Assembly (NCBI GenBank): GCA_030427835.1
Contig: JAUICN010000003.1
Coordinates: 226,965 to 290,964 of the forward strand
DNA from: Polyangia bacterium
GTDB lineage: Bacteria > Myxococcota_A > Polyangia > Polyangiales > JAUICN01
Reading direction: 5' to 3'
DNA length: 64,000 nucleotides
The notes under the pieces were generated by a model that worked only from the letters and a program-made list of their open reading frames with translations, had not been told where the DNA came from and ran no database searches. This document shows, piece after piece, positions 2,392-10,612 of this stretch; position 1 is the stretch's first letter, and every line of letters begins with the position of its first letter. Position numbers and translations under genes: made by a program.

Positions 2392-4014
2392 GTGACCCGT
2401 GTGTGGCTTGAACAGACGAAAACCTATCCCGTATTGATCCTTGTGGTGGCGGTCGCCACAGGCGTACTTGGGTTCTTCACCCTGAAGAACGTAAATCAAC
2501 AGGCCCAGCTTGGAGAACAGGCCATCGCCCAGGCCATGCTGACCCCCCTAAGCAAAGACGTGGAACAAATCGAGTCCACTATCATTAAGACCGACAACCG
2601 CATATTGCATGAGTTCAACCCCGAGGCCCCAGGGCAATTCGCTAGCCAATGGAGAAGCCAGGCGCACGTCGTCTCTCCCATCGTACGGGCCCTTGTGGTG
2701 TTCGAAAACACAGGGCGGCTGCTCGACTTTAACTACCGGGGCACCCCGGAGGAAGCGTCTCACTTCAAGAACCAAATCCTCGGCCAGCTGCGGGTAGACC
2801 TTCAAATTGCGACCACCAAAAGCACCAAGCTGCAACACCTGCACACCACGTACGGAACACAAAGCACCCTAGTAAGCCACCAGGCCCTTCCCACACGCGC
2901 TCCCAAATTTCACGTGGTCATCTACTACGACACCGCCTGGATCCTACAAACTGTGATCCGTGAGGTGCTCGAGAACCACGATGGAAAGCATATCTACAAC
3001 GTCATGGACAACAACAATCGAGTGGTCTACGGGCAAACCCTCGCCAACGCCGGGGACTACACGGTCGGCCGCCGCTTTCCCACGACCCTCTACCAGTGGC
3101 GCTTGCAGATGGCCCCCAGACAGGCCGCGCAGCTCGATGCCCAAAGCAAGAACCAACGGTTCAGTGAACTGACACTGGTGGTATTCTCCCTGGCCATCGT
3201 TCTCCTGGGCGTCGCATTTATTCTCGTGGCGGTCGTGAAGGACCGCAAAATCAACCAACTAAAATCAGAGTTTGTCTCCACCGTATCCCACGAGCTCAAA
3301 ACCCCGGTTTCCGTGATTCGAATGTTTGGAGACATGCTTCGCAGCGGAAAAGCCCGCACTCCCAAGAAACGGGAGCAGTACATCGAAGTCATCTGCAGGG
3401 AAACGGAACGGCTTTCTGCCCTGGTGGACAACGTGTTGGACTTCGAAGCGATGGAACAGGGTGAACGCCGTTATGCGCTGACTCCACAACCTATTTACCC
3501 CGTGATCGAGGCGGCCGTGGACGCCATGGGGCCCCGCCTCGAACAGGAAAACATCACCCTGGATTTGCAACTGCCGAAATCCAACGATGATGAACCTGGA
3601 CATAACAGCGTGGGCCCTCTGCAGGCCTCTCCAAATCCCACCGTACCCCTAGACCGGGAAGCCGCGCTTCTTGCCCTGGTAAACCTCATCGACAACGCCA
3701 TCAAGTACGGCAACGGCACCCCCATCACCATCACCACCCGGGTCTACCCCCAGCATGTGGAAATACGAGTCATGGACCGCGGCCCTGGTATCCCCGTGGA
3801 ACAACGGGTACGGGTGTTCGACCGGTTCTACCGCGCTGCTCACCAAAGCGGCATTCGAGGTACGGGGATTGGGCTAGCGCTTGTAAAAAGCATTGCCACC
3901 GCACACCGGGGGTGGATACGGGTGGACTCTGTGAAACCCCATGGTGTTTGCATGACCCTAGGACTTCCGACACACAATAGCACCCACCCAAAACCCACCG
4001 GCGAGCACACATGA
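2392..4014 (+). CDS. Membrane sensor histidine kinase
   Basis: Bacterial two-component sensor kinase of 540 aa. A first membrane segment (about residues 12-30) is followed by a periplasmic sensor region of about 225 residues with no family I recognise, then a second membrane segment (about 259-282). The dimerisation/phosphotransfer motif FVSTVSHELKTPVSVI places the phosphorylated His at residue 300. The ATPase domain has the N box (NLIDNAIKYG), G1 (DRGPGIP) and G2 (GTGIGLAL) motifs. There is no HAMP domain: the second TM runs directly into the phosphotransfer helix. The gene starts with GTG at 2392 and its stop overlaps the ATG of the response regulator (ATGA), so the pair is translationally coupled. 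The signal sensed is unknown. The membrane-protein genes immediately downstream are possible targets or partners. Confidence 0.93.
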   Translation: MTRVWLEQTKTYPVLILVVAVATGVLGFFTLKNVNQQAQLGEQAIAQAMLTPLSKDVEQIESTIIKTDNRILHEFNPEAPGQFASQWRSQAHVVSPIVRALVVFENTGRLLDFNYRGTPEEASHFKNQILGQLRVDLQIATTKSTKLQHLHTTYGTQSTLVSHQALPTRAPKFHVVIYYDTAWILQTVIREVLENHDGKHIYNVMDNNNRVVYGQTLANAGDYTVGRRFPTTLYQWRLQMAPRQAAQLDAQSKNQRFSELTLVVFSLAIVLLGVAFILVAVVKDRKINQLKSEFVSTVSHELKTPVSVIRMFGDMLRSGKARTPKKREQYIEVICRETERLSALVDNVLDFEAMEQGERRYALTPQPIYPVIEAAVDAMGPRLEQENITLDLQLPKSNDDEPGHNSVGPLQASPNPTVPLDREAALLALVNLIDNAIKYGNGTPITITTRVYPQHVEIRVMDRGPGIPVEQRVRVFDRFYRAAHQSGIRGTGIGLALVKSIATAHRGWIRVDSVKPHGVCMTLGLPTHNSTHPKPTGEHT

Positions 4015-4811
4015 CCACCAACTCAGACGCGCCCACACACGCGGTACAAAACCCACCAAAACCCGCCCACCATGCAGGCACGATCCTGGTGATCGAAGAT
4101 GATCCTTCCCTAGCCCTCGGCCTCACCGACTCGCTCGAGTTTGAGGGATACACCACAGTGCATACTCCCACTGGAAGTGAGGGCATCCACCACGCGATAA
4201 ACACCCCACCCGACTGCATCATTCTCGATCTCATGCTGCCCGACGTGAACGGATTCCAGGTATGCACGGAAGTCCGCAAGACCAACCCAACCGTGCCCAT
4301 CATCATGCTCACAGCACGGAGCCAAGAATCCGACAAAATCCGAGGCCTGGAAGTGGGTGCGGATGACTACGTGACAAAGCCCTTTTCCGTGGGAGAGCTT
4401 GTGGCCCGAATACGGGCCATTCTACGGAGGCAGCAAGCGGCCCGTTCCGAGGCAAGCCCCTGCTGGGTCATTGGAGAAAACCGGGTGAACCCCGACACCC
4501 AAACCGTGGAAAGGAATGGGTTACAGCACTCCCTCACCTTCTACGAACTGGAAACCCTGCGTGTGCTCTACGAAAACGCGGGGACCCCCATCGAGCGGAC
4601 AGAGCTCCTGGAGCGGGTATGGGGGCTTGAACTCAAACACGGCAACCGTACGGTGGACAACGTGGTCATGAAGCTGAGACGCAAACTAGAACAGGAACCA
4701 GAGCAGCCCACACACCTTCTCACAACCTATGGAATAGGCTACAAACTATCCCTCGGGGAACAGGCCCCAGGCCCCACACTGGCCGCGGCCCCAGAAAGGA
4801 CCCCACAGTAA
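4011..4811 (+). CDS. OmpR/PhoB-family response regulator
   Basis: Transcriptional regulator partner of the preceding histidine kinase. After an unusual N-terminal extension of about 24 residues comes a receiver domain with acidic pocket (IEDD), phosphoacceptor Asp73 in ILDLMLPD, the Thr/Ser switch (MLTAR) and Lys123 in VTKPF. The C-terminal half is a winged-helix DNA-binding domain (TFYELETLRVLYENAG, then RTVDNVVMKLRRKLE and YGIGYKL), the OmpR/PhoB type. The start codon overlaps the kinase stop by 4 bases and the stop directly abuts the ATG of the next small membrane gene at 4812. The regulator therefore appears to head the operon-like string of membrane genes that follows. Confidence 0.95.
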   Translation: MTTNSDAPTHAVQNPPKPAHHAGTILVIEDDPSLALGLTDSLEFEGYTTVHTPTGSEGIHHAINTPPDCIILDLMLPDVNGFQVCTEVRKTNPTVPIIMLTARSQESDKIRGLEVGADDYVTKPFSVGELVARIRAILRRQQAARSEASPCWVIGENRVNPDTQTVERNGLQHSLTFYELETLRVLYENAGTPIERTELLERVWGLELKHGNRTVDNVVMKLRRKLEQEPEQPTHLLTTYGIGYKLSLGEQAPGPTLAAAPERTPQ

Positions 4812-5018
4812 ATGGCCGCAGGCACCCTCTATCTCCTGCTCTACGGAGCGGCTTTTCTTGGTTTCTTTGCCCTCGTCGCATTGGCCTTGGCCCTTACCAA
4901 AATCGCAGGAAAAAACGCACTGAATCGGTTCCAGTCACGATCTCTCCCGCTGGACGCCCAGGGCGCCCACGCCACAACGAACCCCTCGCCCCCAAAATCG
5001 AACGAACCCCCGCCATGA
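4812..5018 (+). CDS. Small membrane protein, unknown function (68 aa)
   Basis: I do not recognise a family. The ATG immediately follows the regulator stop (no gap). Residues about 4-28 form one strongly hydrophobic helix (YLLLYGAAFLGFFALVALAL), followed by a basic stretch (KIAGKNALNRFQSR) and a Pro/Ser/Asn-rich tail, which suggests an inner-membrane peptide with a cytoplasmic C-terminus by the positive-inside rule. Its last codons overlap the ATG of a second small membrane protein at 5015 (ATGA). The tight coupling on both sides supports a real gene despite its length. Confidence 0.7.
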   Translation: MAAGTLYLLLYGAAFLGFFALVALALALTKIAGKNALNRFQSRSLPLDAQGAHATTNPSPPKSNEPPP

Positions 5019-5176
5019 CCTCCCGGCCCCCCACCACCTCCCGTTCCACTGCCCCAGGTCCACACCGTGAAGACAGGATCGGTCGTGCCGTAGGAGTATG
5101 GGTATTTTGGGTTCTCACGCTGTACACCGTGGCCGTCGGATTGTGGTCCATACCAAGACAGCTGTTCTCTGAGTAA
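5015..5176 (+). CDS. Small one-TM membrane protein, unknown function (53 aa)
   Basis: A 53-residue reading frame starting at ATG 5015, overlapping the preceding gene's stop in an ATGA arrangement. The first 24 residues are polar and basic (many Ser, Thr, Pro, Arg), followed by one hydrophobic helix of about 20 residues (residues 25-44, containing VGVWVFWVLTLYTVAVGLW) and a short tail ending LFSE. I do not recognise a family. The overlap with the upstream gene, the TM segment and the position in a run of membrane-protein genes support it. The next gene starts 49 bases downstream at a GTG. Confidence 0.55.
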   Translation: MTSRPPTTSRSTAPGPHREDRIGRAVGVWVFWVLTLYTVAVGLWSIPRQLFSE

Positions 5177-5225
5177 AATCCAAGTAGAAACCATCCTCCA
5201 AGATTCGGTACCGTAGGGGTAGACC

Positions 5226-6164
5226 GTGACTGTCGATCCCAGCCAACACCCTCGCCCCTCCCCCCAGGAGCTGACCCTCGCCCTTGCCGCCCTATCCAAG
5301 CACCAGAACCAACCTTGGGTTGTGGTGGTCGATCGGTTGGATCACGGGCCCTTCTCGGCCCAGGAACTGGTGGAGCAAATCATCAAAGGTGCCGTAGGCC
5401 CCACACACTTCCTGCGCAACATGGATACACGTCAGGAAGGGTCCGTGACCGAGTTCAACGAACTGTCGCCTTTCCTGGTCGAACAACAACACCGTCAAAT
5501 CGCCCAACGGATCCAGGAAAAGGAAGCCCGATCAAAGCGTCGAGAACGCAGGACGCGCGTATTTTTCGCGGTGATCGCAGTGGCTGTGGTCGGGGGACTC
5601 AGCGCAGGCACCTATCTTCTCTTGAAACCCTCTCCCAAACAATCAAGCACCCCTCTTGGCAACCAAGAATCCCTCTACGCATCCCCAGAAGTCCACTTGG
5701 GTACCGCTTCCCAGGCCCAACAACGCGGATCCACCCGTTCCAGCCGTCCGGGTTCCCCTCGCGGAGCCATGACGCCCGAAAAGGCCAAAAACACGGATTC
5801 ATTCGAAAATAATGTGCCCCACGGGCCCCTAAACTACGACCAAGCCATGGCCATTCCCATGGCGGTGGGAGATCTGGATCGCGGCTCAGAACGACAACTA
5901 TCGGACACCCAGGTCGCCCAACGGCTCAATCACGCCCTTCCCACGGTGGAGCCATGCCTTCGAGAGGCCAAAGCCCAGGGGATCCAACCGGGAATAATTC
6001 AACTGCGTCTGGCGATTCAAGGCACGGGTCAAGTCATGGGAGTCACCGTGCAATCCAACCACGGCGATCTGCGACAGTGCATTGCCCAGAAAATTCGGCG
6101 GGTACGTTTTCCCACTTTTCCTGCGCCCCGAATGGGTGCTACGTACGCCTTTGATGCCTCCTAA
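5226..6164 (+). CDS. GYF-like / TM / AgmX (TonB-like) tail protein, GltJ-like
   Basis: Predicted single-pass inner-membrane protein of 312 aa. Residues about 30-84 resemble a GYF domain: PWVVVV, then HGPFSAQELVEQIIKG and a distal EFNEL. A Lys/Arg-rich stretch precedes one TM helix (about 112-133). A Ser/Pro/Gly-rich periplasmic linker follows. The last 75 residues match the AgmX/PglI C-terminal (TonB-like) domain of myxobacteria: a conserved Cys near LPTVEPCLREA, GIIQLRLAIQGTGQV and a second Cys in LRQCIAQKIRRVRFP. GYF-TM-TonB-tail is the layout known for Myxococcus AgmX/GltJ of the gliding machine, which additionally has a zinc ribbon not seen here. Starts at GTG 5226; its 3' end overlaps the next gene by 11 bases. 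Function is inferred only from architecture. Confidence 0.75.
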   Translation: MTVDPSQHPRPSPQELTLALAALSKHQNQPWVVVVDRLDHGPFSAQELVEQIIKGAVGPTHFLRNMDTRQEGSVTEFNELSPFLVEQQHRQIAQRIQEKEARSKRRERRTRVFFAVIAVAVVGGLSAGTYLLLKPSPKQSSTPLGNQESLYASPEVHLGTASQAQQRGSTRSSRPGSPRGAMTPEKAKNTDSFENNVPHGPLNYDQAMAIPMAVGDLDRGSERQLSDTQVAQRLNHALPTVEPCLREAKAQGIQPGIIQLRLAIQGTGQVMGVTVQSNHGDLRQCIAQKIRRVRFPTFPAPRMGATYAFDAS

Positions 6165-6966
6165 GCACCCCGCAACGGAACCCAGCCCATGCTCCGGCCA
6201 GCTTGGCCCCTTGTTCGCAGGACTGTTCGCGGGACTGCTCGCGCTCAGTGGATGCACAGAGGTTGTGGCATCCGAGTTGGACGAGAACCAGGCCAACCGG
6301 GTGCTGATCGCGCTGGACACAAACGGGGTAAACGCGGTCAAACATCCTTCCAATGTAGGCACAGACGAAACTCGGTGGACCATCAAGGTTCCCAGCACCG
6401 AAACGGTCCAAGCCCTACGCGCCCTCGAATCCCGAGGGCTTCCACAACAACCCCCCATCGACATCAAGCCACTCATCGAACAACGGTCCATGGTGCCCTC
6501 CAATACCGAGGAACAGGCCCGTTGGAGCCGCGTGGCGTCCGCCGAACTCGCAACGACCCTCCGAAGTATGGAAGGCGTTCTGGACGCCCGCGTGCATCTT
6601 GCCTGGCTTACCCAAAACCCGTGGGATCTTCAAAAAGCCGCAAGCCAGCCCCGCGCATCCGTGCTCATACGGCATTTCGCAAATGCACCACCTGTCCCAG
6701 AGCGGGACGTGAAACAACTGATTTCTGGAGCCATTCAGGACCTGGCGCCCGATCAGGTTCGTGTGGTATTTCAAACCACCACCGCGCCCCACGACGCACC
6801 TTCCCGTTTCACAAAAGTAGGCCCTTTTTCCGTGGAAAGGAGATCCGCCGCACTCTTGAGATGGACCGGGGTGGCCCTGCTTCTCCTCGTATCACTGGTG
6901 GCCCTATTGGCCCTCGTGCCCGTTGTTCGCCGGAGATCCCAGCCTCCAACAGATACCCTGTCCTGA
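6154..6966 (+). CDS. SctJ/YscJ-family lipoprotein (type III secretion-like inner ring), solitary
   Basis: Predicted lipoprotein of 270 aa with a signal peptide and lipobox LSGC (Cys34). The mature part follows the YscJ/PrgK/SctJ pattern: ELDENQANRVLIALDTNGVNA, then a beta strand (RWTIKV), LRALESRGLP, VPSNTEEQARWSRVASAELATTLRSMEGVLDARVHL, ASVLIRHF and VKQLISGAIQDLAPDQVRVV. A C-terminal TM helix (about 233-258) with a basic end completes the SctJ layout. ATG 6154 is chosen because it gives a proper signal peptide; it overlaps the upstream stop by 11 bases. In type III systems SctJ forms the periplasmic-side inner-membrane ring. No other type III gene is present in this window, so its ring partners are unknown. 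Confidence 0.85.
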   Translation: MPPKHPATEPSPCSGQLGPLFAGLFAGLLALSGCTEVVASELDENQANRVLIALDTNGVNAVKHPSNVGTDETRWTIKVPSTETVQALRALESRGLPQQPPIDIKPLIEQRSMVPSNTEEQARWSRVASAELATTLRSMEGVLDARVHLAWLTQNPWDLQKAASQPRASVLIRHFANAPPVPERDVKQLISGAIQDLAPDQVRVVFQTTTAPHDAPSRFTKVGPFSVERRSAALLRWTGVALLLLVSLVALLALVPVVRRRSQPPTDTLS

Positions 6967-7007
6967 ACGCTCTCCCGTACCGAAGGTTTGTGTTACACTG
7001 GCACGCG

Positions 7008-7775
7008 ATGGGCGATTCCCAGGACGAGTCTTCGGTCCTCTTCAACCTCAAGGAACTTATGGGCCTTGAGGAAGAGAGGGTTCAAGAAAAACAACGACTT
7101 GCGTTGGAGCAGGAAGAGGCACAGGCCCGCCTTGAGCGAGAGGCCCAGGAGCGTCTTGCCCGCGAAAAACAGGCGGCTGAACGGGAACTCCTGCAACAAC
7201 AGCAGGCTCAGGAAGAAGCCGAGCGCCGTGCCCTGGAACAGCAACAGCAGGCCCAGCAAGAAGCGGAACTCCGTATCCGGATGGAAGAGGAATCCAGGGC
7301 GAAAGCCGCCGAACAGGAGCGGCTCCTACAACACGAACGGGAAGTGGAGCGAATCAAGGCGCAGCAAAACCGTGGGATCCGTCCCGGGGTGCTGGCAGCC
7401 ATTGTCTTGATTGTCGGCGGAGGAGCAGCCGCAGGTTATTTCCTTGGGATCAAACCCATGATGGAACGCTCGGAGGCCCAAGCACTGGCCGCACAAAGGG
7501 ACGCCGAGCTGGAGCAAGAAACCCGCCGACGATTGGAACAGGAAGCCAAGGCGGCCAAGGAAGCCGCCCGTCTTGCGGAGGAACGGGCCGCTACCGCTGC
7601 ACGGGAAAAGGAAGCACAACAGCGGGCCGCCGCCCGCCAGTTGGAACAACAGGGGACGACTTCCGCCGGGAGAAGCACCACTCGACGCGCACGCCCCCCC
7701 CGGCGCCCCGCCGGCAGGCGACCCACACGCCCCCAAAACAACGACGACCCCCTGGCAGGGCTTGAGGGTATCTGA
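7008..7775 (+). CDS. Transmembrane coiled-coil protein, unknown function
   Basis: 255 aa. The ATG at 7008 begins MGDSQDESSVLFNLKELMGL, followed by about 100 residues of Gln/Glu/Arg/Ala heptads predicted to be cytoplasmic coiled coil, one TM helix (about 125-146, GVLAAIVLIVGGGAAAGYFLG), a second, likely periplasmic Ala/Glu/Lys coiled coil (about 155-215), a basic Pro/Arg-rich stretch and an acidic end (DDPLAGLEGI). The frame stays open far upstream of 7008, but that part overlaps the SctJ-like gene and has unlike composition, so it was not used. It lies 41 bases after the SctJ-like gene. Coiled coil on both sides of the membrane fits a structural or tethering role. No enzyme motif is visible. 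Confidence 0.75.
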   Translation: MGDSQDESSVLFNLKELMGLEEERVQEKQRLALEQEEAQARLEREAQERLAREKQAAERELLQQQQAQEEAERRALEQQQQAQQEAELRIRMEEESRAKAAEQERLLQHEREVERIKAQQNRGIRPGVLAAIVLIVGGGAAAGYFLGIKPMMERSEAQALAAQRDAELEQETRRRLEQEAKAAKEAARLAEERAATAAREKEAQQRAAARQLEQQGTTSAGRSTTRRARPPRRPAGRRPTRPQNNDDPLAGLEGI

Positions 7776-7834
7776 CCCCTGGGTGGATCTGGAACCCCTC
7801 GAACCCACCCAAGTGACCTGCTAAAGGGCGGAAC

Positions 7835-8608
7835 ATGGTATCTCCGCCTAAAACTCCAGAGCTAGCCCTTGCGTTGGACGTCCCTAGTCTGGCGGAAGCC
7901 ACACAGTGGGTGGAGCAAATGGACGGCACGATCTCCCTCTTTAAGGTCGGCCTCCAGCTGTTTACAAAAGAGGGGCCGGCCGTGGTGAACATGATTCATC
8001 AACAGGGCGGACAGGTATTCCTCGACCTCAAGTTCCACGACATCCCCAAAACAGTCGAGCAAGCCGTCTCTTCCGCCTGCGCCCTTGGGCCACGCTTCCT
8101 GACGATCCACACCACCTCGGGACCTGCGGCCATTGCAGCGGCGGTAAGGGCAAGCGAGTCCTCGGGTACCACTCTTCTTGGCGTATCCGTTCTGACAAGC
8201 CTCGACACAGGGGACCTACAACAGCTTGGTTGGGGCACCTCGCCTGGGGATCTCATGGCCCGCCTGACCCAGCTGGGAGCAGACCAGGGCCTGAATGGCT
8301 TCGTATGCTCCCCCCAGGAATGCCACGATCTCCGACAACAGTTGGGTAAGGAAAGCACCCTAGTGGTCCCGGGAATCCGCCCGGAACCCATGGATCAACC
8401 CGATGGGACTTCCACCGGCCACCCACACGCTGGAGACGCCCAAACACATCCCGTTCCAGAGCAGGACGATCAAAAGCGGGCTGCAACACCGGCTCAGGCG
8501 GTTCGTGCTGGGGCCAACGTATTGGTGGTCGGCCGCCCCATTCGAAACGCACCGAACCCACGCGCCGCAGCCCACCGCATCCTTAAACAGATTCAATCTT
8601 CCCCATGA
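7835..8608 (+). CDS. pyrF: Orotidine 5'-phosphate decarboxylase
   Basis: PyrF converts OMP to UMP, the last step of de novo pyrimidine synthesis. Visible are the beta1 motif LALDVPS, the active-site FLDLKFHDIPKT (charged Asp/Lys/Asp network), the TIHTTSGPAA strand, PGIRP and the phosphate loop VVGRPI. This is the shorter bacterial type 1 family. Between PGIRP (about residue 180) and DQKR (about 212) sits an insertion of roughly 28 residues rich in His, Asp, Thr, Gln and Pro. In most relatives only a few residues join these two motifs, so this loop is enlarged. The start has an upstream purine stretch (AAAGGGCGG). The stop overlaps the next gene's ATG by 4 bases. Confidence 0.95.
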   Translation: MVSPPKTPELALALDVPSLAEATQWVEQMDGTISLFKVGLQLFTKEGPAVVNMIHQQGGQVFLDLKFHDIPKTVEQAVSSACALGPRFLTIHTTSGPAAIAAAVRASESSGTTLLGVSVLTSLDTGDLQQLGWGTSPGDLMARLTQLGADQGLNGFVCSPQECHDLRQQLGKESTLVVPGIRPEPMDQPDGTSTGHPHAGDAQTHPVPEQDDQKRAATPAQAVRAGANVLVVGRPIRNAPNPRAAAHRILKQIQSSP

Positions 8609-9543
8609 CCCCGAAACGTTCACAACCCTCCCGATCCCCATCAAATCACCTTCACTTGCCCGGGTGGAACGCGGTTACGGAAGCCCTCAAAGCCAACCTG
8701 ACCATAGAAGATCTCTACCTTCGCACATCAGCCACCCAGGGAAACAGTTCCGCCAGGGACGGGGGACAAAAGAAATCGTCGTCAAGACAGCACAGGGAAG
8801 TCGTTGAAGAATTGCGAAGTCAAGGTACTCGAATCCACAACGTCTCCCACAGTGAAATCGCAAACCGTGCGGGAACAGAACACCACCAGGGTGTCCTGGG
8901 TGTGACACCCCACCACTTCCTGTACAGGGAGCTGGATGAAATCTTATCGGCCATGCGTCCACATGGAATACTCATCGCCCTAGACAACCTACAGGACCCA
9001 CACAACCTGGGAGCCATCGTGAGAACAGGTATGGCCCTGGGCGCACAAGGGTTCATCATCCCCAAGGACCGCTCCGCCGGGGTTTCCCCAGGATCCATAC
9101 GAAGCTCCGCTGGAACGATTCTGCGCGCTCCCATCGCCCGGGTAACCAACATGGCCCGCACCCTCAAGGAGCTCAACGAACGGTTCCTGGAAACCGTGTT
9201 GATCGAGCCCCATCAGGCCCAGTCCATTCACAACTTGGGCACCATCCCCACCCAGGGACGCGTATTGGTTTTTGGGTCCGAACAACAGGGCTGTCGCCCA
9301 TGGGTACGCAAACAATGCCAATACCAGGTCTCCATCCCGATGGCCGCTCAGATGGAGGCCGCAAAAGAAAGCAGCCACGGCGTACCCGCAAACGACGCAG
9401 CAACCCACCCCGGTGAAACGACAAAAACTGTAGCAACTCAAGGCGTTGTGGAATCCCTAAACGTATCTGTGGCCGCGGGGATTGCACTCTACACCTGCTT
9501 TCACGCACAATCAGGAAATGGCCCAAACCCCAAAACGCACTGA
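8605..9543 (+). CDS. rlmB: 23S rRNA (guanosine-2'-O-)-methyltransferase, SpoU/TrmH family
   Basis: SPOUT-fold methyltransferase, RlmB-like, 312 aa. Motif 1 is ALDNLQDPHNLGAIVRTG with catalytic Arg; motif 2 is LVFGSEQQGCRPWVRKQC; motif 3 is split into SIPM and VESLNVSVAAGIALY. The N-terminal L30e-like substrate-binding domain (GWNAVTEALKA, then HQGVLGV) is present with a Ser/Gln/Lys-rich loop. Between the two halves of motif 3 lies an insertion of about 36 residues (Ala/Thr/His/Gly-rich), which is unusual because this region forms the trefoil-knot cofactor pocket. It overlaps pyrF at the 5' end and pfkA at the 3' end. Exact rRNA or tRNA target is not certain from sequence. Confidence 0.88.
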   Translation: MTPKRSQPSRSPSNHLHLPGWNAVTEALKANLTIEDLYLRTSATQGNSSARDGGQKKSSSRQHREVVEELRSQGTRIHNVSHSEIANRAGTEHHQGVLGVTPHHFLYRELDEILSAMRPHGILIALDNLQDPHNLGAIVRTGMALGAQGFIIPKDRSAGVSPGSIRSSAGTILRAPIARVTNMARTLKELNERFLETVLIEPHQAQSIHNLGTIPTQGRVLVFGSEQQGCRPWVRKQCQYQVSIPMAAQMEAAKESSHGVPANDAATHPGETTKTVATQGVVESLNVSVAAGIALYTCFHAQSGNGPNPKTH

Positions 9544-10612
9544 ACGGGTCGCCATCCTCACGGGCGGCGGAGATGCCCCGGGTCTAAACGCGGTGCTTCG
9601 GGCATTCGTGCGCGTGAGCCATCACCACGGCATCGAAGTCTACGGTAGTGAAGACGGTTTTGAAGGCCTCGTACAACGCAACCGCATGGTCAAACTCACG
9701 CCAGGATCTGTCAGAGGCATCCTCGCCCGTGGCGGCAGCATTCTTGGATGCTCGAACCGAGCAAACCCGTTTGCCTATCCCACAGGCACAGAATCAGATC
9801 CCTACGAAGATCGCACCCAGGACGTGGTAGAACGGCTTCGAAGCCATGGGATCGACATTCTCGTGCTTGTGGGTGGAGACGGCACCATGGATATCGGGCA
9901 CCGTCTCTCACAGCAACACAAGGTTCCCGTAGTTGGCATTCCCAAAACCATCGACAACGATCTTGGCGCCACGGACGTCACGTTTGGATTCGACACGGCG
10001 GTCACCACAGCTACCTGGGCCATCGACACCCTACACAGTACGGCGGAGGCCCACGATCGAATCATGATCGTAGAAGTCATGGGGAGATATGCAGGTTGGA
10101 TTGCACTGCATTCCGGCATGGCAGGCGGCGCCGACATTATCCTGCTCCCAGAACGGCCCTACGATATCGAACGGGTTGCCACCAAAATACGGCAGCGGGC
10201 CCAGCAAGGGTCAACCTTCAGTATTGTGGTGGTAGGAGAAGGCGCCTACCCGAAAGGCACACCATCCACAGAAGCAAGCCCAGTGGATGGCCACCTGCCA
10301 AAACTGCAGGGGGCCGCCGCCACTTTGGCACAACACCTCGGCGCACAGGTTCCACATGAGATCCGAACTACGGTACTCGGGCACCTACAACGGGGAGGCA
10401 GCCCCTCCCCAGCAGACCGGATCCTTGGAACCCGTTTTGGAGCGGCCGCGGCAGATCTCTGCGCCAAAGGAATCACGCAACGCATGGTATCCATTCGCAA
10501 CGAACAAATCGTGGATGTCGCCCTAAAAGAAGCCGTGCAAAATCCAAAACGGGTCACAGATTCAGAACCGCTTATCGCCACAGCAAAAGCCATTGGCATA
10601 GAATTTGGTTAA
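9518..10612 (+). CDS. pfkA: 6-phosphofructokinase, ATP- or PPi-type uncertain
   Basis: Phosphofructokinase A family, 364 aa, phosphorylating fructose 6-phosphate in glycolysis. ATG 9518 is preferred because it has AGGAA upstream and is followed by the first strand ERVAILTGGGDAPGLNAVLRAF. Other motifs are LVGGDGTMDIGHRL, GIPKTIDNDLGATDVTFGFDTAV and EVMGRYAGWIAL. The nucleotide-site residue is Gly (GGDGT, as in ATP enzymes), while the following loop has Lys (PKTIDND), the residue typical of PPi-dependent or mixed group III enzymes. Donor specificity is therefore open. The C-terminal allosteric part is shorter than in strictly regulated enzymes. It overlaps the methyltransferase gene by 26 bases and converges on guaA. 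Confidence 0.92.
   Translation: MAQTPKRTERVAILTGGGDAPGLNAVLRAFVRVSHHHGIEVYGSEDGFEGLVQRNRMVKLTPGSVRGILARGGSILGCSNRANPFAYPTGTESDPYEDRTQDVVERLRSHGIDILVLVGGDGTMDIGHRLSQQHKVPVVGIPKTIDNDLGATDVTFGFDTAVTTATWAIDTLHSTAEAHDRIMIVEVMGRYAGWIALHSGMAGGADIILLPERPYDIERVATKIRQRAQQGSTFSIVVVGEGAYPKGTPSTEASPVDGHLPKLQGAAATLAQHLGAQVPHEIRTTVLGHLQRGGSPSPADRILGTRFGAAAADLCAKGITQRMVSIRNEQIVDVALKEAVQNPKRVTDSEPLIATAKAIGIEFG

Follow-up and report, generated by a model that had tools for sequence, protein, structure and literature searches.

The present analysis concerns a gene for an SctJ-type lipoprotein and its neighbours in a stretch of 64,000 nucleotides (the window) from a Polyangia bacterium of the order Polyangiales (assembly GCA_030427835.1, contig JAUICN010000003.1). 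The product of this gene is very probably the inner-membrane ring component of a type III export machine of non-flagellar type. The genes of this machine are dispersed over the genome, one to a locus except for SctS and SctT, which share theirs. The window genome is a metagenome-assembled genome (MAG) of 3.32 Mb in 30 contigs with 98% completeness.

Gene organisation of the locus

A first-pass annotation of the window had described a coupled kinase/regulator pair followed by five membrane-associated genes. The described features are real and were all located in the window sequence, with the starts of the SctJ-like and the coiled-coil genes corrected. They are, with TM denoting transmembrane and ORF open reading frame:

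2392-4014, + strand: histidine kinase; conserved neighbour that stays where SctJ is gone
4011-4811, + strand: OmpR-type regulator; conserved neighbour that stays where SctJ is gone
4812-5018, + strand: 68-aa one-TM ORF; candidate gene, 0 relatives among the 39 loci searched
5015-5176, + strand: 53-aa one-TM peptide; short form of a syntenic protein, neighbour
5226-6164, + strand: protein with GYF domain, TM and TonB/AgmX-like tail; neighbour, independent of the type III secretion system (T3SS)
6154-6966, + strand: SctJ-type inner-membrane ring lipoprotein with lipobox, ring-building motif 1 (RBM1), linker, RBM2 and C-terminal TM
7008-7775, + strand: TM protein with coiled coils on both sides of the membrane; neighbour that stays without SctJ

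For SctJ the most likely start codon is ATG 6154, which gives an 11-nt overlap with the end of the GYF gene. ATG 7008 is the start of the coiled-coil protein, which carries the conserved motifs ESSVLFNLKELMxLEEERI at its N-terminus and DDPLAGL at its C-terminus. The two small ORFs, joined by an ATGA overlap, had both been described as genes of one-TM proteins. Both are present as ORFs; the 68-aa one lacks relatives, and the 53-aa one is a shortened version of a protein of 153-188 aa found at the same place in relatives.

The SctJ-type lipoprotein

The protein has a lipobox (LSGC, mature Cys at 6253) and scores 128 bits (E = 2.6e-37) against TIGR02544, where the equivalog cut-off of 162 is not reached, and E = 3e-19 against the Pfam family YscJ_FliF. 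An AlphaFold (AF2) model built from 33 sequences has a pLDDT (predicted local distance difference test) of 88 and shows both ring-building motifs together with a linker helix and a helix at the C-terminus. A Foldseek search with this model gives EscJ at E = 3e-13, and EscJ, PrgK and MxiJ (about 1e-12) are the best solved matches. The match lies far above chance and the EscJ/PrgK fold is predicted with confidence. Used as a lone query against genome contigs, the window protein gave no match.

Of 57 genomes of the window's order, 49 have SctJ-type matches, a few of these being FliF only. Pattern matching recognises a lipobox Cys in most of 40 aligned SctJ sequences; in L039 the start was set by hand and the pattern does not match. 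RBM1 is gone from SctJ in two genomes of family f9 (L064 9460-10137 and L065 9852-10436), which keep the lipobox, RBM2 and the TM. Fusions of SctJ to glutamate dehydrogenase, suggested by the ORF lists of some genomes, were rejected as wrong-frame shadows.

A scattered set of non-flagellar export genes

Genome searches were made for SctJ, V, U, R, S, T, N and Q. The window genome contains two genes each of SctV/FlhA, SctU/FlhB, SctR/FliP, SctS/FliQ, SctT/FliR and SctN/FliI, and a separate SctQ-like gene. One set is flagellar and clustered on contig C8 (FliF 90842, FliI 94286, FliP 103179, FlhB 104879, FlhA 106015). The second set is spread over contigs 3, 12, 17, 18 and 22:

SctV: C12, position 56521
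SctU: C12, position 81215
SctR: C18, position 331902
SctS and SctT: C17, positions 55169 and 53953, one locus
SctN: C3, position 22328
SctQ: C18, position 230667
SctJ: in the window, positions 6154-6966

The first-pass annotation had pointed out that parts would be needed from elsewhere, and the non-flagellar ATPase, C-ring and export channel genes are indeed found on other contigs of the same genome. The second-set SctV scores 711 bits as non-flagellar versus 584 as FlhA (over cut-off), SctU 338 versus 293 and SctR 200 versus 167 bits, and the best family match of SctN is SctN itself; these family scores cover V, U, R and N, and S and T were judged as second copies outside the flagellar cluster.

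In the window genome and in relatives across the order, this eight-part core lies at about seven separate places and does not form the one or few clusters that are usual, though not obligatory, for T3SS genes. On the single-contig chromosome of G011 (10,327,335 bases) the distance from one locus to the next ranges from 51 kb to 3.5 Mb. The loci of V, U, N, S/T and Q share housekeeping flanks across families. SctV is flanked by recR-dnaX and SctU by priA in 6 genomes each, SctN by a dnaJ-like gene, SctS/T by an hpt-like gene and SctQ by heme/cox-like genes in 5 genomes each; flank names beyond the recR/dnaX type were recognised from sequence and not by a scan. SctJ lies between lon-gpsA and pyrF-pfkA.

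None of the 54 genomes reaches the TIGR02516 cut-off for the SctC secretin, and the window genome gives no SctC match at E = 1e-20. Matches below the cut-off are expected from the secretins of type II secretion and type IV pili.

Joint absence of SctJ and the export genes

Whole-genome searches of five genomes of genus g4 gave no match to any of the eight proteins. Four of them (G003, G012, G036, G049) keep the block of kinase, regulator, GYF and coiled-coil genes with SctJ missing from it; in two of the four, part of the block is cut off by a contig end or by the limits of the retrieved sequence. A six-frame profile search found no SctJ remnant at the g4 locus. This natural deletion is the strongest test: because g4 keeps the neighbours yet loses SctJ, with the other seven proteins also unfound, SctJ is tied to the scattered export genes and not to its neighbours.

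Another genome, G031, has flagellar copies only. No SctJ match was found in genus g49 (G318, G362, G388, G390), whose genomes are very large (10.8-13.4 Mb). Among T3SS-positive genomes the SctJ score correlates more closely with that of SctR (rho 0.71) and SctS (0.77) than with that of GYF (0.35); these correlations agree with the joint absence but are weak evidence, because the species are related and SctJ also correlates with GYF within families. In G003, the expected place of SctJ is taken by two ORFs for PilT-like ATPases on the opposite strand (L151, about 6767-9728).

Proposed machine

Most likely the SctJ gene belongs to a variant of the non-flagellar type III system that is fully dispersed and lacks a secretin, and from the genes we infer that the scattered parts assemble into one machine. 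The proposed assembly of SctJ and its partners follows established knowledge. After export and lipidation, SctJ would be anchored by its lipid and C-terminal helix. Its two ring-building motifs would let it form a ring in the periplasm that encloses the export gate of SctRSTUV, and SctQ and the ATPase SctN would lie on the cytoplasmic face. The machine would probably be akin to the secretin-less, needle-less basal body (T3SS*) of Myxococcus, because SctC was not detected.

Several points weigh against this interpretation. The joint loss amounts to about two events and not six, g4 being one genus and G031 one genome, and the absence of the other seven genes in g4 is a result of whole-genome searches. 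G033 (91% complete) has V, R, S, T and Q, and SctJ, SctN and SctU were not found there. Within families the SctJ score correlates with GYF at 0.43. The flanks of SctR are common to G000 and G034 only, and the SctS-SctT spacing varies. Parts are strongly diverged in family f11 and in G019 and G047; there, and in the RBM1-less f9 genomes, the machine may be decaying. A SctN tree, meant to date the dispersal, does not separate dispersed from clustered forms; several of its forks are weak and the branch of FliI is long. The genome searches cover the eight core parts, and the window genome is a MAG in 30 contigs.

Neighbouring genes and alternative explanations

The gene order of the window is old, and family f9 has the same order with extra genes between. 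It reads, largely complete, lon-gpsA-kinase-regulator-TM protein-DEAD helicase-lipoprotein-GYF-SctJ-coiled coil-pyrF-rlmB-pfkA-guaA-guaB. The window locus is a compacted form of this arrangement: helicase and lipoprotein are missing from this position, the TM protein is down to 53 aa, and the N-terminal domain of the GYF protein is lost. Conservation of the gene order in relatives, which had been put forward as a check, is thus seen for the arrangement as a whole, but SctJ is lost from it singly in g4. The genes for kinase, regulator, GYF protein and coiled-coil protein are neighbours by old synteny and not required parts of the proposed machine. In some relatives an operon for an Mla-like ABC transporter and a glutamate dehydrogenase gene lie between SctJ and the coiled-coil gene (L049 4514-9974).

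The GYF protein was found in all 54 genomes, in G033 as a weak partial match only. Its AgmX tail, named as such in the first-pass annotation, scores 30.9 bits, below the NCBIfam cut-off of 40; the model of the protein resembles C-terminal domains of TonB and, with a weak E-value, the GYF domain of GltJ (E = 0.11, probability 1.00). As full-length GltJ (NF033761) it scores 22.9 bits against a cut-off of 450. GYF relatives (L063, L064, L065) carry, before the GYF domain, an N-terminal domain matching Pfam Pkinase that is no longer present in the window copy. Inspection of the alignment by eye shows that in most relatives its catalytic HRD motif is changed to HG[ALVM] and the VAIK lysine is replaced, so that the domain is a predicted pseudokinase. 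In Bradymonadales-like genomes the sctJ-sctL-sctN cluster is adjoined by a gene for a Ser/Thr kinase that has an AgmX tail (L086 14730-16943, L087 14571-16649), a possible sign of an older link of such proteins to T3SS.

One extension of the proposed machine would give the GYF protein a part in it: the pseudokinase-GYF-TonB-like protein would dock on the SctJ ring and bridge to the outer membrane in place of the secretin, forming a new signal-gated type III exporter. GYF would then be kept without SctJ because of a second, T3SS-independent role. We regard this scaffold as improbable.

Alternatively, SctJ and GYF could form a local envelope module, a trans-envelope ring with its tether and no export apparatus. 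Of 39 loci of relatives, about 35 have the two genes side by side in unchanged order, often overlapping or abutting. One genome from a different order of the class (L083) also has them adjacent, and the AgmX-tail kinase gene near the Bradymonadales-like T3SS loci would fit as well. However, the GYF protein is also present in the SctJ-less genomes, some genomes of family f12 have SctJ without an adjoining GYF gene, GYF sitting elsewhere, and SctJ goes missing jointly with V, U, R, S, T, N and Q. Such a module is therefore quite unlikely. The same observations tell against the five-gene envelope system of the first-pass annotation, since SctJ alone drops out and the kinase, regulator, GYF and coiled-coil genes stay; the control by the two-component pair suggested there is likewise not borne out, the pair being kept in genomes without SctJ.

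A further possibility is that SctJ and the scattered parts are relics of a formerly clustered T3SS, drifting or singly repurposed. The dispersal of the genes, the undetected SctC, the loss of RBM1 in f9 and the divergence in f11, G019 and G047 would agree with this. We consider it very unlikely nonetheless, since residues are near-invariant across 33 SctJ sequences, which also makes improbable the decayed SctJ relic that the first-pass annotation had kept as its alternative, since the eight-part core is kept across most genera examined in the order, and since its absence is joint and not piecemeal. That the scattered parts are spare or alternative flagellar subunits, as the coexistence of both sets in the window genome might suggest, is largely refuted by G011 and G029, which have the scattered set and no flagellar set, and by the non-flagellar family scores, and is extremely unlikely.

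Comparison with known systems

Among the myxobacteria, published surveys place T3SS in Myxococcales or Myxococcaceae only (PMC10196010, PMC11821767), and SctV and SctR copies in Polyangia were noted by a third survey (PMC11509652). Our SctV survey of named organisms, with matches mostly in other phyla, finds SctR-S-T-U-V together in Archangium and Corallococcus. Distant sctJ homologues, whose gene neighbourhoods the first-pass annotation had proposed to check, adjoin sctL-sctN in members of the phylum outside the window's order. A literature search, with subscription journals mostly outside its coverage, found no description of a dispersed T3SS set in the window's order. Should the scattered set form a single machine, a type III exporter without secretin would be widespread in the order and would have been overlooked, probably because searches relied on clusters or on similarity to Myxococcus xanthus. 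It would also bear on the question of clustering: a multi-part nanomachine would have remained whole throughout an order with its genes hardly clustered, and where it is lacking, it is lacking as a unit. Abby and Rocha suggested that a lack of specific regulation might relax the selection for clustering (PMC3459982).

The window protein resembles canonical SctJ (EscJ, PrgK, MxiJ) in fold, lipobox, two ring-building motifs and C-terminal TM. It differs in having no adjoining sct gene and in its identity of only ~18-25% in the structural matches, and RBM1 is missing from some relatives within the order. The GYF neighbour is similar to GltJ of the Myxococcus gliding machine in its GYF domain, one TM and TonB-like tail, and differs in the N-terminal pseudokinase predicted in its relatives, a domain the window copy is without.

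The non-flagellar T3SS (NF-T3SS) of Chlamydiales is similar in its distribution over several loci, being scattered over at least four (PMC3459982). In the window's order, in contrast, almost every core gene is alone, and SctC is not detected. The NF-T3SS loci of Cystobacterineae in the Myxo group are clustered and secretin-less (Abby and Rocha 2012, PMC3459982); since SctC is absent from this accepted group, it is not obligatory for NF-T3SS (PMC3459982). The closest parallel is the T3SS* of Myxococcus xanthus, of the same phylum, which has the same non-flagellar SctJ, Q, R, S, T, U, V and N and no secretin (PMC3459982; PMC10433427). Its genes are clustered, whereas those of the window's order lie at about seven separate places. 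The T3SS* has a role in contact-dependent prey killing; the proposed machine of the scattered set may possibly serve in contact-dependent killing or export.
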